From a virus, in IMG/VR virus record IMGVR_UViG_3300044998_000411, positions 1 to 44,758 of that record: a DNA stretch of 44,758 nucleotides, one strand, 5' to 3'. The notes below the pieces were generated by a model. That model did no database searches. It had not been told where the DNA came from and saw only the letters and a program-made list of their open reading frames with translations. The position numbers were made by a program, and so were the translations under genes. The stretch's first letter is position 1. Each line of letters begins with the position of its first letter. Positions 1 through 44,758 of the stretch are shown here, piece by piece.

Positions 1-237
1 GTTCCGGCATGGTGTGCCACGTATGGCTCTAAACTCTAGCAAGGCTATGTCCTTCCGCAGTTTTTTGCGCTTTGTTCTTTTCCCAGTTTTTTCCCTTTCT
101 TCTTTTCTAAGAGTTTTTTTTTTTTTTTTAGAAAAACGGGTATGGCTCCCATCCATACCAAACAACAACACTAGCCCCCCAATTTTCCAAAAACGGGCAC
201 CCCTAGTCACGCAACGCGGTAACGAATGCGGACCAAT
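1..237. repeat. Left copy of terminal direct repeat
   Basis: The first 237 bases recur at 44524-44758. The only difference seen is the T tract: 16 T here (114-129) and 14 T in the right copy. The repeat is non-coding and contains a hairpin-plus-tail element near base 5-40, a T tract flanked by the inverted 7-mers TTTTCTA (103-109) and TAGAAAA (129-135), and a 7-bp hairpin (139-145 with 153-159). It may be a real direct terminal repeat as in T7-like phages, or the overlap left when a circular or permuted molecule was assembled. The sequence alone does not decide. Confidence 0.95.
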
Positions 238-3253: not shown

Positions 3254-3422
3254 TATTGCGGGACTCATTTGTCGCTTCAAAGGTCATGACTGGCAAACGC
3301 GCGTAATTGTGCCTGGGAAATTTGCACAGGCAACTACACAAATATGCGCTCGATGCGGCAAAGGTGAGCGTGAGTATCATCAGGCATTAACTATATGCAG
3401 TCATATTACGGAGACTAATTAA
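3246..3422 (+). CDS. Small Cys-pair (zinc-ribbon-like) protein (58 aa)
   Basis: ATG at 3246 follows GGGAGA (3235-3240), spacing 5. The product begins MPNIAGLICRFKGHDWQ and has CARCGKGEREYH around residues 34-46. A Cys near residue 9 with Gly-His-Asp-Trp and the CxxC later suggests a small metal-binding ribbon like the phage DUF1660 family; this is by recall. Its TAA overlaps the ATG of the transposase-like gene (TAATG). Function unknown. Confidence 0.6.
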   Translation: MPNIAGLICRFKGHDWQTRVIVPGKFAQATTQICARCGKGEREYHQALTICSHITETN

Positions 3423-4237
3423 TGGTTGACGGTCTTGGAGAAGTTATTCGCAAATTATCTAAAGACGAGCGAATAGCAAGTAAAACGCTTGGTAATGATG
3501 AAGCGCGTTTTTTGGTAGATGCCTACTATCAAATGCAGGAGAACCGCATTCGAGCTGATGGGCAAGTGCGCTCCATGTCCAAGGGCGATGAACCGCACGA
3601 GGTATTGTCATGGCTGGCAGATATGAACCGCGTGTTGGAAAACCAGATTAAGCTTGCGCTTGATGCTTATTCCATGTCTACACCAGTTGGCCAATGGATG
3701 CGAGCACAGTTCGGGATCGGCCCTGTCATTGCCGCTGGTTTACTCGCCCATCTTGACATTACCAAAGCACCCGTCGCAGGAGCGTTTTGGTCATTTGCCG
3801 GTCTCGACCCGACAAAAGTGTGGGACAAAGGACAAAAGCGTCCGTGGAACGGGCAACTCAAAACGTTGTGCTGGAAATTAGGAGAAAGTTTTGTCAAGGT
3901 CAGCGGCAATCCTGATGCTTTCTATGGGCATATTTACAAGCAGCGCAAGGATTACGAAACACGGCAGAACGAGGCCGGGGCTTATGCTGAACAAGCAAAA
4001 ACTAAGTTGGAAAGGTTCAAGATCGGCAAAGAAACCGACGCTTACGCCTGTTACAGCAATGGCAAGCTGCCGCCTAATCACATTCACGCGCGAGCAAAAA
4101 GGTATACCGTTAAATTATTCCTCTCACATCTTCATGAAGTGATGTATCGAGACTATTATGGATGCCCTCCGCCTAAGCCTTTTGCGATCGAACATTTAGG
4201 CCATGCACACATTATCCCTGTTCCGCCGGGGAAATAG
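3422..4237 (+). CDS. IS110-type transposase C-terminal-domain protein (271 aa)
   Basis: Residues about 95-140 contain GIGPVIAAGLLAHLDI and FWSFAGLDP, the helix-hairpin-helix and GL-P core of the Transposase_20 (IS116/IS110/IS902) domain. Downstream, LPPNHIHARAKRYTVKLFLS is a conserved stretch in phage and prophage homologues. The N-terminal RuvC-like DEDD domain of active IS110 transposases is absent, and no Ser-Gly is seen after the GL-P motif where IS110 enzymes carry their nucleophile. The start at 3422 is coupled to the upstream stop. It probably binds DNA or RNA rather than moving DNA. Four tandem repeats directly follow it at 4240-4388, with no inverted ends of a transposon visible. Confidence 0.75.
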   Translation: MVDGLGEVIRKLSKDERIASKTLGNDEARFLVDAYYQMQENRIRADGQVRSMSKGDEPHEVLSWLADMNRVLENQIKLALDAYSMSTPVGQWMRAQFGIGPVIAAGLLAHLDITKAPVAGAFWSFAGLDPTKVWDKGQKRPWNGQLKTLCWKLGESFVKVSGNPDAFYGHIYKQRKDYETRQNEAGAYAEQAKTKLERFKIGKETDAYACYSNGKLPPNHIHARAKRYTVKLFLSHLHEVMYRDYYGCPPPKPFAIEHLGHAHIIPVPPGK

Positions 4238-4239
4238 AC

Positions 4240-4388
4240 AGAAACAATTTTCAAGAGCGAGCCGTGGTGTGGGAAAGAAACAACATACTTGAGCGAGCCA
4301 CATAGCACGAAAAGAAACAATTGATTGAAGCGAGCCATGAGGTGAGATTGAAACATCAGTTTAGAGCGAACCAAAATAGGAAATCTAC
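4240..4388. repeat. Four imperfect 36-37-bp tandem repeats
   Basis: Units start at 4240, 4276, 4313 and 4349. In every unit GAAACA sits at offset 1-6 and GCGAGCC (GCGAACC in unit 4) at offset 17-23, while the bases between vary. The array fills the whole 152-base gap between the transposase-like gene and the gene at 4390. The regular half-turn spacing of two conserved blocks suggests protein-binding iterons, or a structured RNA made of repeated modules. It is not a typical CRISPR array: the conserved blocks are short and the units are too short for repeat plus spacer. Confidence 0.8.
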
Positions 4389-5246: not shown

Positions 5247-5558
5247 ATGATCCAGTTTGAAATCCTCGACAATCGTTATACTCAAGAACACCTGGGCCTT
5301 ATCCCACTGTTCTTGAGTGAAATTGACGAACGTTCTGCCGCCGAACAGTTTGATGATAATTACGCCCACGGCGGCGGCTGGTCTCCCATGCCTGGGTGGA
5401 AGATGGGATCGGCAGGAGAAATTATTTACCCTAGCGAACAGCCTCTTAAGCCAATCGCTCAAGCAACTTTACGGCAAGAAGTCATCCGTTTTTACCCTTA
5501 TGCATGGGTAAGCATTACTCAGCCGGACGGAACATTTGAAATCTCGAGGATGGACTAA
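5247..5558 (+). CDS. Hypothetical protein (103 aa)
   Basis: ATG at 5247 has CGGAG about 7 bases upstream. The product includes a Gly/Trp/Pro-rich turn region (GGGWSPMPGWKMG) and ends with beta-like sequence (YAWVSITQPDGTFEISRMD). No family was recognised. Its TAA overlaps the ATG of the next gene (TAATG). Confidence 0.7.
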   Translation: MIQFEILDNRYTQEHLGLIPLFLSEIDERSAAEQFDDNYAHGGGWSPMPGWKMGSAGEIIYPSEQPLKPIAQATLRQEVIRFYPYAWVSITQPDGTFEISRMD

Positions 5559-5737
5559 TGAAATACTCCATTCGCATCTTGCAACTCCGCGACGGCTCAA
5601 TCGATCTCACAGTCTATCGAGGTCGAATGCGCTACACCGAAAATCTGACGCCGGAACAAGCGCAAGAGCTTGCCTATAAGCTGCAAAGTTTTGCCGCTGG
5701 GCAACAGATCGAACCCTATTATATCCTCAAGAAATAA
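5558..5737 (+). CDS. Hypothetical protein (59 aa), possible paralogue of 5033-5245
   Basis: ATG at 5558 overlaps the upstream stop. The product reads MKYSIRILQLRDGSIDLTVY, then NLTPEQAQELAYKLQSFA, sharing order and key positions with the protein at 5033-5245. It ends at TAA 5735-5737, 11 bases before the methyltransferase-like gene. No family was recognised. Confidence 0.65.
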   Translation: MKYSIRILQLRDGSIDLTVYRGRMRYTENLTPEQAQELAYKLQSFAAGQQIEPYYILKK

Positions 5738-5748
5738 TGGAGTTAATT

Positions 5749-6414
5749 ATGAATGTAATCAGTCTTTTTGACGAAAGCGGAAATATGCTTCAACCTTGGG
5801 CTAAAGCTGGTCATTCTTGCATAGCTATTGATATTCTAAACAAAGACGGAGTAATAGATGAAGATGGTATTTTATACCTGAACCGAGATTTATCTGTCCC
5901 TAACATTTTAAAAGACCTTAAACCAGATATTGTATTTGGATTTCCTCCGTGCACCGACTTAGCTGTAAGTGGAGCTGCGCATTTTGCTTCTAAGCGAAGA
6001 AAAAATCCTCACTTTCAAGCTGAAGCTGTAAAATTGGCGCGAGTTGTAGAAAGTTTCGGAAATGAACACGGAGTTCCTTGGTTTATCGAAAACCCTGTTA
6101 GTGTTATGTCTTCTCTATGGAGAAAACCTGATTATATTTTTCACCCATTTGAGTTTGGAGGTTACCTTCCCGAAGATGATATTCATCCTCGATGGCCGCA
6201 ATACATAAAACCAAGAGATGCTTACCCAAAGAAAACTTGTCTTTGAGTCGGCGGAAATTTCACTCTTCCTCCCAAAAAACCAGCGCCAGTTCAAAAAGTT
6301 TATTCTCTTCAACACAGAAAACTTGGCGGTAAATCACTTAAAACAAAACGAATAAGATCTGAAACTCCTCGAGGTTTTGCAGAAGCTGTTTATCAAAAAT
6401 ATGGAGTCAATTAA
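5749..6414 (+). pseudogene. C5-cytosine methyltransferase-like gene interrupted by in-frame TGA
   Basis: From ATG 5749 (TGGAG 6 bases upstream) the frame encodes MNVISLFDESGNMLQPWAKA (AdoMet-binding motif I region), FGFPPCTDLAVSGA (motif IV with the Pro-Cys nucleophile) and WFIENPVS, as in phage C5-methyltransferase-like proteins. At 6244-6246 it meets TGA, directly after KKTCL. In relatives that I recall, a Trp stands here (KKTCLW-GG). The same frame stays open for 55 more codons to TAA 6412-6414 and encodes the expected family C-terminus (ETPRGFAEAVYQ). So one TGG-to-TGA change, a sequencing error, or UGA read-through explains the layout. The four other Trp codons in the gene are TGG. The gene is visibly more AT-rich than its neighbours. 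Without read-through the product is 165 residues long. Confidence 0.8.
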
Positions 6415-8723
6415 TGCACAGCCTTACCCCTGAGCAAGCCGCAATCATTGAAGCAACCATACAAACCACAGATAATCTCATTGTGAGCGCATTAGCCGGC
6501 GCAGCTAAAACTTCAACTCTCGTCATGCTTGCAAATGAACTGGCTAAAGTTAAGCCTGGTATGGAAATCCTCTGCCTTGCGTTCAACAAAAAAATAGCCA
6601 TTGAAATGCAGAGCCGCCTTCCCTCAACCTGCCGCGCTATGACGCTTAATTCCCTCGGCTACCGAACTTGGGCATCTGCACTTGGTAAATCTCGCCTCAA
6701 AGTCAACTTCAAGAAAAACTACGAGATCATGCAGGCGGTGATCGAAGAGCAAACCAAGAGCGACCAGAGAGAACTTTACCCCCGCATGACAGAACTCATG
6801 CGCATTGTTTCGTTCGGCAAAGCTTGCGGTTATATTCCATCTGGCGAGTGGGAAAATCGCGCTAAACGCCTTATGGACGACTCAGAATTTTTTGCTCACA
6901 TCGACCAAAAGCTTTCTTCTCTAGAGCAATCCATCATTCGGGAATGCAGCATCCGAAGCATCAAACTCGCTTTAAAAGGTGAGTGCGATTTTGACGATCA
7001 AATCCTGATGCCCACCTTGTTCGGCGGCAGCTTTCCTCTTTACAAGCTGACACTTGTAGACGAAGCTCAAGATCTGTCCGCACTAAACCACGAAATGCTC
7101 CGAAAAATCTGCGGCAGTCGTAGACTAATTGCTGTAGGCGATCAATGCCAACCAGCCGGGACAAAAGTTACTGTTGTGGACAGGCCTGGTGATCGTTGGA
7201 ACGCGCCTAAGCTGCGTCAAGTTAATATCGAAGACCTTCAGGTAGGAGATAAACTGCTTGGCTATACCGGCGAAGGCTCCTTCACGTTCAACAGAACTGT
7301 CGAAGGCATTAGCCAGAATTACTACGAAGGCGAGCTTACGATAGTTGAAGTAGCTGGTAACACTTCCATCTATACAGAAAACCATCACTGCTATGCATCC
7401 TTTGAGCCTTTTCGAGAACACTTCGCACTCTACCTCATGCGTAAAGGAAAATACTTTCGCCTCGGGCGCTGTAAGATGAATTACGAATGTGGCGCCGGGC
7501 CAACGCGAAGAGCAATTGCAGAAGGCGCAGACGCTTACTGGCTTCTCGGCGTTTATCCAACAGAGCGCGAGTGTGCGATCGAAGAAGCGGTAGCGCAGGT
7601 GCAGTTCGGTTTGCCTGACATTACTTTCGTATGCCCCAACACCAACAGTGGCTTTGCGACCCAAAAGTTTCTCGATGAGGCGTGGGCATATATTTCTGCG
7701 TCAGTGGATCTCGAAGAGCGAGCGCATCAATGCCTTTCCTACTATAAGCGAATACCTGACTATCCCATCTGGAAGAAAGGCGCAGCGGCCAAGTTCAGTC
7801 TGCTTCGTCCGTCAATTGTTCATGCTTGCAATTTGATTACAGGTTGCCTCATGCTTCCTTACCGTGGACGGAGTAAAATCTTTGCCGAGCAATGGACGCC
7901 AGCAAACATAACGCGACAATGGGTCAAAGATCTCCCAGTCTATTCACTTACTGTAAGCCACAACAACCTTTACGTGGCTGACAACATCGTTACGCACAAC
8001 TGCCAGGCTATCTACGGTTTTCGAGGTGCGCATGAAAATGGCATGGAAGAACTGAAGCATAAGTTTTCCATGCGAGAACTTCATTTAACTACCAGTTTTC
8101 GATGTGCCAAAGAAGTTGTGAAAGCAGCTCAATGGCGAGCTCCCCTTATGCGCGCTCCAGAGTGGGCGGATGAAGGAAGTGTCACCACTCTTAATGCATG
8201 GCGGGCATCTGACTTGGCTGAAGACGCAGCAATTATTTGCCGCAATAACGCTCCGCTTTTTAGTCTCGCAATAAAGCTGTTAAAAGTCGGTCGCCCAGCA
8301 GAACTCGGCGGTAAAGATGTAATTCAACTGATCACTAAAATCATGGCAAAGTTTGGCGATCACAAAATGAAGCGGCAAGAGGTGCTCGACAACATTAACG
8401 CTTGGCTTGCGAAAGAAAAGTCTAAGACAAAAGAGCGCGCTCATGCAGCCCTGGAGGACCGCGCTAAGTGCATGGAAATCTTTGCGTTGCAAGGAGAAAC
8501 TTTGGGCGATGCTTTGCACTACGCAAATCACAGTGCTGAGTTACATAGCCCCCTGAAACTTCTTACTGGCCACAAGTCTAAAGGTTTGGAGTTTGAAAAC
8601 GTCTACTTTCTCGACGAACACCTAATCGGTCAAGAGGAGCAAGAGCCGAATATTCGCTATGTCATTATCACTCGTGCCAGGCGCAATCTTACCTACATCC
8701 AATCCGAAGGATATCGGGTTTGA
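6414..8723 (+). CDS. UvrD/Rep-like superfamily 1 helicase with intein (769 aa precursor)
   Basis: The gene starts at ATG 6414, overlapping the methyltransferase frame's TAA. Extein motifs follow SF1 order: Walker A-like SALAGAAKT (25-33), motif II LVDEAQD (214-220), motif III split as AVGDQ / CQAIYGFRGA, motif IV TSFRCAKEVV, motif V TGHKSKGLEFE and motif VI YVIITRARR. Walker A has AGAAKT in place of AGxGKT, as in several phage homologues. A 285-residue intein (245-529) interrupts motif III, so the helicase can work only after splicing, which would leave about 484 residues. It likely unwinds DNA in phage replication or recombination. It lies directly upstream of a hairpin and promoter. Confidence 0.88.
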   Translation: MHSLTPEQAAIIEATIQTTDNLIVSALAGAAKTSTLVMLANELAKVKPGMEILCLAFNKKIAIEMQSRLPSTCRAMTLNSLGYRTWASALGKSRLKVNFKKNYEIMQAVIEEQTKSDQRELYPRMTELMRIVSFGKACGYIPSGEWENRAKRLMDDSEFFAHIDQKLSSLEQSIIRECSIRSIKLALKGECDFDDQILMPTLFGGSFPLYKLTLVDEAQDLSALNHEMLRKICGSRRLIAVGDQCQPAGTKVTVVDRPGDRWNAPKLRQVNIEDLQVGDKLLGYTGEGSFTFNRTVEGISQNYYEGELTIVEVAGNTSIYTENHHCYASFEPFREHFALYLMRKGKYFRLGRCKMNYECGAGPTRRAIAEGADAYWLLGVYPTERECAIEEAVAQVQFGLPDITFVCPNTNSGFATQKFLDEAWAYISASVDLEERAHQCLSYYKRIPDYPIWKKGAAAKFSLLRPSIVHACNLITGCLMLPYRGRSKIFAEQWTPANITRQWVKDLPVYSLTVSHNNLYVADNIVTHNCQAIYGFRGAHENGMEELKHKFSMRELHLTTSFRCAKEVVKAAQWRAPLMRAPEWADEGSVTTLNAWRASDLAEDAAIICRNNAPLFSLAIKLLKVGRPAELGGKDVIQLITKIMAKFGDHKMKRQEVLDNINAWLAKEKSKTKERAHAALEDRAKCMEIFALQGETLGDALHYANHSAELHSPLKLLTGHKSKGLEFENVYFLDEHLIGQEEQEPNIRYVIITRARRNLTYIQSEGYRV
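7146..8000 (+). other. In-frame intein in helicase motif III (285 aa)
   Basis: The insert starts with Cys (CQPAGTKV) and ends with VADNIVTHN followed by Cys+1 of the extein, the layout of a standard Cys1/Asn/Cys+1 intein. Block B is present as TENH at intein residues 77-80, and the last block includes PVYSLTVSHNNLYVADN. Length is between mini-inteins (about 140) and endonuclease-bearing inteins (over 330). The middle has no LAGLIDADG or HNH motif. A conserved-looking block YWLLGVYPTERECAIEE (131-147) sits there; its activity is not known. The intein joins a Gln to a Cys inside GDQ-CQAIYGFRG, a highly conserved site favoured by inteins. Confidence 0.9.
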
Positions 8724-14222: not shown

Positions 14223-14404
14223 GCACTTATCCAAAGATGCTTGCTGATCGTTTCACTTTGCAGGCAAAAGCGGCGAATATTTCGCCTCATCGCTTATTGC
14301 TTGACGAGTTCACCAGTCTACAGCAAGCCTATTTCGCTGCGTTGAAACTTTTGCTTGAGGAAAAGCCGAATGAAGATTGCAATAGTCGGCGAAGCTCCAA
14401 GTGA
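14219..14404 (+). CDS. Hypothetical protein (61 aa)
   Basis: ATG at 14219 overlaps the methyltransferase TGA. The product is mostly helical (MLADRFTLQAKAANISPHRL, then AYFAALKLLLEEKP) with a short basic end. It overlaps the next gene by 35 bases in another frame. No family was recognised. Confidence 0.5.
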   Translation: MSTYPKMLADRFTLQAKAANISPHRLLLDEFTSLQQAYFAALKLLLEEKPNEDCNSRRSSK

Positions 14405-15350
14405 CCAAGACATTGAAGAAGGCCAATTGTTTACTGGAGCAATCGGCTGGCATCTTGACCAAATGCTTAGTGCTGCCGGCATTAATCGTCGTGAGTGCCT
14501 AGTTACCAGTGTATTCAATCAACGCTTAATTCGCGGAGACGTTAAGAATTTTTGTGGCCCGAAAGGAGAAGCGGCAGAAGGTTTACCTCCAATATCACGA
14601 GGAAAATATCTTCGGCGAGAATATGCCGGAGAAATATCTCGACTACGAGATGAAATTAATTCTGCCGCTCCGAACCTTATTCTCGCTCTAGGCTCCACTG
14701 CTTTATGGGCTTTCAGCGGTGAAATTGGGATACGACAATACCGAGGCGTCACTCGCCTCAGCACCTGCGGAAAAAAACTTCTTCCAACCTATCACCCAGC
14801 CGCAGTTCTGCGTGAGTGGTCGCTTCGTCCAATCGTCATCGCAGATTTTCATAAAGCCGCGGCGCAAGCTGAGTCTCCAGACTACAACCCACCTCGGCGA
14901 CGAATTCATATAGAGCCGACTATTCGCGATTTGCTTTTATTCGAGGAGAAATATTTTGCCAGTGCCGTCAAACTTGCCTGTGATATTGAAACGAAACAAG
15001 AGCAAATTACTTGCATCGGTTTCGCGCCTAACGCTGAAAACGCAATTGTCATTCCATTCTTTCACCATTCCGGCAAGAATTACTGGTCGTCAAAGGAAGA
15101 AGAGCTCGAAGCCTGGAAGATAATTCGTCGATGGCTCGCCACTTACCCGACTGTGTTCCAAAATGGCATATACGATATGAGTTTTCTATGGCGAGTTTAT
15201 GGTATTCCAGCTCCACGTGCGTGTGATGATACAATGCTTTTACATCATGCGCTTCAGCCTGAGCTGAACAAAGGCCTAGGTTTTCTAGCATCTCTTTACA
15301 CTGATGAACCCTCATGGAAACAAATGGGCAAAGGACAAAAGCATGATTGA
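14370..15350 (+). CDS. Uracil-DNA-glycosylase-like domain fused to 3'-5' exonuclease (326 aa)
   Basis: ATG at 14370 has GAGG 9 bases upstream. Residues 1-165 look like a family 4-type uracil-DNA glycosylase: GEAPSDQDIEEGQLFTGAIG near the start and PTYHPAAVL near residue 145. Residues from about 185 form a DnaQ/PolA-type proofreading exonuclease: LACDIET (Exo I), NGIYDMSF (Exo II) and a C-terminal block up to SLYTDEPSWKQMGKG. In most PolA-like phage polymerases this last block leads straight into the polymerase domain. Here the ORF stops, and the polymerase domain is a separate gene at 16034, two genes downstream. The two products probably work together as polymerase and proofreader. Confidence 0.82.
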   Translation: MKIAIVGEAPSDQDIEEGQLFTGAIGWHLDQMLSAAGINRRECLVTSVFNQRLIRGDVKNFCGPKGEAAEGLPPISRGKYLRREYAGEISRLRDEINSAAPNLILALGSTALWAFSGEIGIRQYRGVTRLSTCGKKLLPTYHPAAVLREWSLRPIVIADFHKAAAQAESPDYNPPRRRIHIEPTIRDLLLFEEKYFASAVKLACDIETKQEQITCIGFAPNAENAIVIPFFHHSGKNYWSSKEEELEAWKIIRRWLATYPTVFQNGIYDMSFLWRVYGIPAPRACDDTMLLHHALQPELNKGLGFLASLYTDEPSWKQMGKGQKHD

Positions 15351-15699: not shown

Positions 15700-16034
15700 T
15701 CTATCTTGCCAGCCCTTATACCTCAGACAGTCCTACTACTATGGAGCGCCGATTTCGCCAAGCTGCGGCAGCAACAGCTGCACTTATCAATCGAGGCAAG
15801 ATAATTTACTCCCCTATCTTGCATTTTCATCCGCTCGCAGAACTTTACGACTTGCCAAAAAACTTTGATTTTTGGCGGGAAGTAAACCTTAATATGCTTT
15901 CTCTCGCATCTGAACTTTGGGTGTTAACAATTGAGGGCTGGCGTGAGTCTCACGGTGTGCAAGCAGAAATTGCTTTTGCTCATGAACGCAGTATTCCTGT
16001 TAACTACATAAGCAGTGAAATCTGGAAAATCTAA
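15696..16034 (+). CDS. DUF1937-like nucleoside-deoxyribosyltransferase-fold protein (112 aa)
   Basis: ATG at 15696 overlaps the upstream TGA. MIYLASPYTSDSPTTMERR at the N-terminus and a later GWRESHGVQAEIAFAHE are typical of DUF1937/DUF4406-like proteins with a nucleoside 2-deoxyribosyltransferase fold. Members bind or alter nucleotides, but the phage activity is not known. Its stop overlaps the ATG of the polymerase domain gene. Confidence 0.7.
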   Translation: MIYLASPYTSDSPTTMERRFRQAAAATAALINRGKIIYSPILHFHPLAELYDLPKNFDFWREVNLNMLSLASELWVLTIEGWRESHGVQAEIAFAHERSIPVNYISSEIWKI

Positions 16035-17638
16035 TGCGAGTTATCGACACAATCGAAAGCGATCTTTCAGTCCTTAACGAGGACGAAAACTATTGGGTTT
16101 ATAATGGACTTGACAACTGCCTTACGCATGAAATTGACAGCGTGTTGCAAGGGCAGCTTGATGATGTAAGTCGTAATATATACAATCTGTCTCTTGCTTT
16201 GCAGGCTCCGGTCCTTGAAATGAACCTGCGCGGTTTACTCGTTAACCAGCGTCGTAAGTATGCTATCGTCAAAGAGTTTGAAGCGCAGGTCGCTCGTATA
16301 GAAGAGCAATTTTATCGCATTGTGCATGAAGGAGTGGGCATGACTCACTTCGACAATTGGCGTTCGCCTACACAAACTAAAGAGTTGTTTTATGATGTGC
16401 TCGATCTTCCTGTGCAAAAGAAGCGAAACGCTAACGGAATATTTATGCCGACTACAGACGAGCAGGCGTTGGAGCGTCTGTCTATGTATTTCCTCGGCGA
16501 GCCTCTAGCAAATCATTTACTCGCATTGCGGGGACTCGGCAAAATGCTTGGTTTTCTTCGAACCAAGATTGACAATGACGGAAGAATGCGCACGCAGTTT
16601 AATATTGCGGGCACCAACACCGGTCGTTTTGCCTCGAGCGAAACAGATTTTGGCACAGGCACAAACTTACAAAATGTAACATCTTCTTTGCGGAGCGTAT
16701 TTATTGCAGACCCTGGCCGCATTCTTTGTAATATTGACTTAGAACAAGCCGACAGCCGAAACATGGGCGCACTGGCTTGGGAAAAACTTTACGATGCTGA
16801 TGCGAGTCGTATTACTGATTTACTTGCTCGTCGAGCAAAAAACATTCCACACTGGAACCCTTCGCTTCCTTGGCGCGGTCCAGTTGGGCCTGAGTTTGCA
16901 GGCGCTTATTTAGACGCCTGCGAGTCAGGTGACCTCCACACTACTGTAACTAAGATGGCACAGCCAGATTTGCCCTGGGGTAGAGGCCAAACTGATCGTG
17001 AAGTAGCCGATAAGTTAGCCTTTAAAAATAAATCTCACCGAGATTTATCAAAGGGTATTGGTCACGGCAGCAATTACATGGGAACCCCACCCACTATTGC
17101 TAAACAATCTCGTTTACCAACCGCGCTGGTTAAAGAGTTTCAAGTCAAGTATTTCAACGCATTTCCTTGCATCCCTGCAGTTCAGCAAATTATCATTGAC
17201 GAATTGAAGCAGTCAAGTTGCTTAACCACTCCACTTGGTCGCCGTCGATTTTTCTTTGATCGACCTGAAGCTGGCGCTACCCAACGAGAAGGTGTTGCGT
17301 ATATGGGGCAGTCTATGACAGCCGATGAATTAAACTACGGCTTGCTTCGTCTCTGGCGCACAGGACTTGTTGAACTTCTTGTTCAGGTTCATGACAGTAT
17401 CCTCTTCCAGTTTGACGAACGTCGGATTAATGAAATTTTGCCTGTTGCGTTAGAGGCTTTATCGACCAAAATGACGTTGCGCGGAGGTCGGATTTTCACT
17501 GTCGGCACAGAAGCAATGCTTGGCTGGAATTGGGGATATTATTCGGAGGACAATCCTGACGGACTTCGCAAATGGAAAGGAGTTGAAACACGTAAGCGCC
17601 AAGAAAAATCTTTCAAACTCAGCGTTCAGGATTTGTGA
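16034..17638 (+). CDS. Family A DNA polymerase, polymerase domain only (534 aa)
   Basis: The start at 16034 overlaps the upstream TAA. The N-terminus (NYWVYNGLDNCLTHEI) is the segment that normally joins exonuclease and polymerase. Motifs follow: thumb region, NTGRFASSE (near 196), motif A NIDLEQADSRN with Asp235, motif B RDLSKGIGHGSNYMGTPP (around 336) and motif C VHDSILF with His453-Asp454. Motif C has Ser where most PolA enzymes have Glu (HDE). The two metal-binding Asp residues are kept, so activity is expected. The proofreading domain lies in a separate gene at 14370-15350. It would copy the phage genome. Confidence 0.9.
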   Translation: MRVIDTIESDLSVLNEDENYWVYNGLDNCLTHEIDSVLQGQLDDVSRNIYNLSLALQAPVLEMNLRGLLVNQRRKYAIVKEFEAQVARIEEQFYRIVHEGVGMTHFDNWRSPTQTKELFYDVLDLPVQKKRNANGIFMPTTDEQALERLSMYFLGEPLANHLLALRGLGKMLGFLRTKIDNDGRMRTQFNIAGTNTGRFASSETDFGTGTNLQNVTSSLRSVFIADPGRILCNIDLEQADSRNMGALAWEKLYDADASRITDLLARRAKNIPHWNPSLPWRGPVGPEFAGAYLDACESGDLHTTVTKMAQPDLPWGRGQTDREVADKLAFKNKSHRDLSKGIGHGSNYMGTPPTIAKQSRLPTALVKEFQVKYFNAFPCIPAVQQIIIDELKQSSCLTTPLGRRRFFFDRPEAGATQREGVAYMGQSMTADELNYGLLRLWRTGLVELLVQVHDSILFQFDERRINEILPVALEALSTKMTLRGGRIFTVGTEAMLGWNWGYYSEDNPDGLRKWKGVETRKRQEKSFKLSVQDL

Positions 17639-44523: not shown

Positions 44524-44758
44524 GTTCCGGCATGGTGTGCCACGTATGGCTCTAAACTCTAGCAAGGCTATGTCCTTCCGCAGTTTTTTGCGCTTTGTTC
44601 TTTTCCCAGTTTTTTCCCTTTCTTCTTTTCTAAGAGTTTTTTTTTTTTTTAGAAAAACGGGTATGGCTCCCATCCATACCAAACAACAACACTAGCCCCC
44701 CAATTTTCCAAAAACGGGCACCCCTAGTCACGCAACGCGGTAACGAATGCGGACCAAT
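44524..44758. repeat. Right copy of terminal direct repeat
   Basis: These 235 bases repeat 1-237, differing only by two fewer T in the T tract as far as read. The stretch just before (from about 44515) continues the hairpin element (GGATATGGTTCC), which the left copy lacks because the window starts inside it. Confidence 0.95.

Follow-up and report, generated by a model that had tools for sequence, protein, structure and literature searches.

The window, the whole 44,758-nt stretch of viral DNA that was analyzed (IMG/VR record IMGVR_UViG_3300044998_000411), contains on its plus strand a DNA methyltransferase gene that is broken by a single in-frame TGA three quarters of the way along. The whole frame (positions 5749 to 6414) translates into 165 residues, the TGA at 6244 to 6246, a further 55 residues, and the gene's own TAA at 6412 to 6414. 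A Shine-Dalgarno-like GGAG (5739 to 5742, plus strand, noted by eye) lies 6 nt 5' of the ATG at 5749. Translation and alignment delimit the part expressed under the standard code (5749 to 6246, plus strand), which includes the motif I-like, PPC (motif IV-like), and ENP (motif VI-like) segments. The 55-codon tail after the TGA (6247 to 6411, plus strand) is open and family-like, and inspection by eye found no in-frame ATG, GTG, or TTG in it that could serve as a start of its own.

On the left, the gene is bordered by a conserved phage gene for a 59-aa protein (5558 to 5737, plus strand), recognized by comparison with sister phages, and on the right by the gene for a UvrD-like helicase with an intein (6414 to 8723, plus strand), recognized from its sequence and its domain and sister matches. 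The ATG of the helicase gene overlaps the TAA of the methylase gene (TAATG) and is preceded by a GGAG. Because the helicase gene has this GGAG of its own as well as the overlapping ATG, the early stop in the methylase gene may cost translational coupling rather than the start of the helicase. The intein (approximately 7146 to 8002, plus strand) is inserted after GDQ, ends in VTHN before C, matched the C-terminal model TIGR01443, and was not found in three sister phages.

The phage is of the podovirus type. Direct repeats at the two ends of the window (1 to 237 and 44524 to 44758; 237 and 235 bp) are identical except for one T run of 16 versus 14, which suggests that the contig represents a complete genome. 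Three other regions on the plus strand were noted. A second methyltransferase gene of the phage (12921 to 14222) encodes a ParB-like N-terminal domain fused to an N6/N4 DNA methylase. The gene at 14355 to 15350 encodes a uracil-DNA glycosylase domain fused to a 3'-5' exonuclease domain of A-type DNA polymerases, separately from the polymerase at 16034 to 17638. The gene at 3422 to 4237 encodes a TIGR-Tas RNA-guided endonuclease (NCBIfam NF052498, 220 bits versus a cutoff of 100, E of 3e-65); a weak IS110-like transposase match was all that Pfam gave for it. Directly 3' of this gene, an array (4240 to 4375) of alternating GAAACA-N-GCGAGCC motifs with changing spacers, about 36 to 37 nt per unit and with 61-nt repeats at a spacing of 73 nt, looks like a TIGR guide array.

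When the TGA was masked as Trp, residues 1 to 218 of the methylase matched positions 15 to 218 of the 247-position phrog_757 profile (E of 7.7e-75). Relatives from this family were found in 1,568 phage records, 1,539 of which covered at least 80% of the window protein, and many of them carry the annotation Dcm-like C5 cytosine methyltransferase. The gene is accordingly placed in phrog_757, with DNA cytosine methylation as the activity predicted from homology. Invariant columns in an alignment with 51 homologues were kept, P66, C68, E114, N115, P116, G193 to K195, and T206 to A211 among them. Pfam and NCBIfam did not recognize the protein, and a sequence search of the PDB gave no match. The structure predicted for the read-through protein (pLDDT, 89; pTM, 0.87) had DNMT3A/3B and HaeIII methylase as its top PDB matches, with a probability of 1.00 but TM-scores of just 0.35 to 0.52, so that the modeled fold is that of a C5-methyltransferase at moderate TM-scores.

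The residue replaced by the stop is one that the family conserves. Trp166 was invariant in 51 of 51 distinct viral homologues aligned with the window protein. In a larger sample of 173 loci, 107 of them distinct, from viral contigs and bacterial genomes, the codon at the site was TGG in 104 of the 106 distinct homologues that covered it; this sample leans to Trp because some of the peptide patterns used in the scan included Trp166, but other patterns were also scanned, and one scan used YPKKTCL, which lacks the Trp. The two exceptions had CGC (locus L124) and, in a distant homologue (L098), TTC. An internal stop anywhere in the gene was seen in none of the 173 loci, and the remaining four Trp codons of the window methylase are all TGG. 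The window copy matches its family, the Dcm-like C5 cytosine methyltransferases found in Kagunavirus, Dhillonvirus, Drexlerviridae, and further phages, over the full length, and some members likewise adjoin a helicase gene, but it differs in having the TGA as codon 166. A literature search returned nothing on such a stop within phrog_757. The closest copy in the collections was ∼62% identical to the window methylase; a degenerate pattern of the DNA surrounding the stop matched no viral contig, and neither the helicase query nor megablast against phages found a closer relative. Because the nearest copy is so distant, the age of the nonsense change is just bounded.

Homology continues past the stop. 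The 55 codons of the tail lack both stops and indels and are ∼60% identical to the family, a resemblance that is far beyond chance. Of the 19 tail columns in which all 51 homologues agree, the window copy keeps 17, and both departures, A179 and V184 (usual residues, V and G), fall in columns that vary in the wider sample of relatives. When identity in the head was subtracted from identity in the tail, the window copy ranked 9th of 72 and was no outlier. A random-substitution model excluded, at the 5% level, at least about 8 changes in the 165 nt of the tail. A tail in this state would fit a recent stop, readthrough, or an error alike and cannot tell among the three. The preliminary description of this DNA had presented the gene as C5-methyltransferase-like (now backed by the profile match, at about 8e-75), with a TGA in place of a conserved Trp and the expected C terminus beyond it, and the homologue comparisons bear out all three points.

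TGA serves here as an ordinary stop codon. The window has ∼70% nucleotide identity to its sister phages (L082/G001, 44.8 kb; L083; and L084/G003), and 40 of its genes (33.3 kb) are conserved with them. Of these genes, 20 end in TGA, 18 in TAA, and 2 in TAG, and they contain 166 TGG codons, 141 of which are aligned Trp to Trp with the sisters, and not one TGA read as Trp. No sense-frame internal stop was seen in the 40 genes; listed "stops inside" conserved genes were, by eye, in antisense frames or in run-ons past gene ends and were rejected as lesions. No tRNA gene, suppressors included, was found in the contig, nor was an Rfam family there or near the stop or a SECIS-like element, and the RNA downstream of the stop was no more structured than shuffled sequences (fold z, +0.42). 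Selenocysteine insertion was rejected, as relatives have Trp at the site and Rfam had no match near the stop. The same usage, TGG in the homologues and TGA as the terminator of conserved genes, disposes of the idea that TGA is read as Trp in the phage or its host or that the gene came from a donor with such a code, which we regard as extremely improbable: the family residue at the site is indeed Trp, but the methylase itself uses TGG for its four remaining Trp residues and the contig has no tRNA gene. On this point the preliminary description, which had argued against a changed code from TGA stops elsewhere in the genome, was correct.

The methylase differs in composition from its surroundings, with a GC content of 0.38 and a GC3 of 0.22, versus a GC3 of 0.38 to 0.56 in 18 neighboring genes. 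It was absent from all three of the sister records first found, two of which are fragments. Two sisters (G001 and G003) have an unrelated gene before the helicase, encoding proteins of 173 and 160 aa that are 47% identical to each other, and at locus L183 a short gap without any gene is all that occupies the slot. These comparisons indicate that the methylase is foreign, AT-rich cargo in a variable slot.

The explanation that we favor, and consider probable as a whole, is a recent nonsense mutation in a dispensable, acquired methylase, perhaps with slight leakage of UGA to Trp. It is built on the stop, the homology on both sides of it, the standard use of TGA, the foreign composition, and the absence from the sisters. 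In the order of events that we infer, a podovirus-like phage would have acquired a phrog_757 methylase as cargo between the 59-aa gene and the helicase, and a single nonsense change, if the base is real, would then have hit the invariant Trp codon too recently for the downstream sequence to decay. Translation would end after residue 165, within the last core strand. The model places Trp166 in a strand spanning residues 163 to 168, with three helices that carry family-invariant residues after it, and because the stop falls inside this last core β-strand of the predicted structure, the 165-residue product should be inactive; most likely it would either fail to fold or lack activity. Normal UGA leakage, at which enterobacteria insert Trp, the ancestral residue, might give full-length enzyme in no more than trace amounts, so that a low level of the ancestral protein would arise without any need for selection.

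Shigella phage 1b (OR420686, a sequenced isolate) provides a precedent suggesting that loss of the methylase is tolerated in relatives. Like the window, this viable phage has a phrog_757 gene that is broken and adjoins a helicase gene. Its 61-aa remnant (locus L263, 1489 to 1674), annotated as a cytosine methylase, has the first residues fused to the tail through an internal deletion that ran between similar stretches coding for GSG and kept the reading frame, whereas the lesion in the window is a nonsense codon. Phages ∼92 to 94% identical to Shigella phage 1b keep a longer methylase locus. The possibility that the tail in Shigella phage 1b is a separate gene, breaking near the same place, was rejected in view of the internal deletion scar and the longer locus in its sisters. 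In the BASEL phages, the presence of methyltransferase genes was not found to relate in any simple way to resistance against restriction (PMC8594841), which accords with a conditional role for the methylase.

The main rival of a recent nonsense mutation, although we think it unlikely, is a consensus error or minority variant, in which the gene is intact in the population and the assembled record has a wrong or rare base. The lesion is a one-base change in an otherwise perfect gene, the contig is of the viral metagenome type, and the T run that differs between the end repeats shows that the record is not error-free. However, since this run is the sole difference across ∼235 bp of end repeats, with no substitution, substitutions look rare, and there is no other sense-frame nonsense in the 33.3 kb of conserved genes. 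A random error would hit a dispensable gene of 0.67 kb with a chance of ∼2%, whereas real nonsense changes are expected mostly in dispensable genes. The end repeats and these gene-length odds moderately favor a real change over an error.

It is improbable that the UGA is functional and leaky, that is, retained because it gives a lower dose of full-length methylase or two forms of the enzyme. UGA leakage with Trp is established in phage Q-beta, where it occurs about 1 in 15 times at the coat gene and gives A1 (PMC8067240), and in the window it would restore the ancestral residue. Q-beta is similar in that a UGA within a phage gene is sometimes decoded as Trp; its UGA, however, normally terminates the coat gene and the extension beyond it is functional, whereas the window stop splits a conserved domain and shows no sign of retention. 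The intact tail suits a functional leaky stop but is equally explained by a recent mutation. No relative among the 173 loci shares the stop, the downstream structure is no better than that of shuffles, and there is neither an Rfam match nor a suppressor tRNA. The 165-residue form would probably be of no use as a second isoform, because it lacks part of the core strand as well as the conserved tail. The narrower proposal that the UGA has been retained to control dose, with Trp-inserting leakage supplying a few percent of the wild-type methylase, is more doubtful still; if it were true, that few percent would mark the phage DNA and leave the host unharmed. Of the alternatives raised in the preliminary description, very recent decay is thus the best supported, and the suggestion of a leaky UGA that makes two enzyme forms lacks positive evidence.

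Very improbable, too, is a functional 165-residue protein, acting as a shortened methylase or as a DNA-binding protein. All of the catalytic motif-like segments lie 5' of the stop, but the tail contains invariant residues and is kept in nearly all relatives, and the truncation interrupts a core strand.

The explanation is an ordinary one, an accessory gene common among phages that is freshly broken, or else miscalled, in this copy, and there is no evidence here for programmed readthrough or recoding. Finding a single Trp codon replaced by TGA within a frame does not amount to evidence of recoding when no other gene shows the same. In this genome, the TIGR-Tas gene with its guide-like array and the helicase intein merit more attention than the stop. 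That a phage should gain an anti-restriction-type gene in its cargo slot and soon lose it again, as proposed here for the methylase, would be an expected process.
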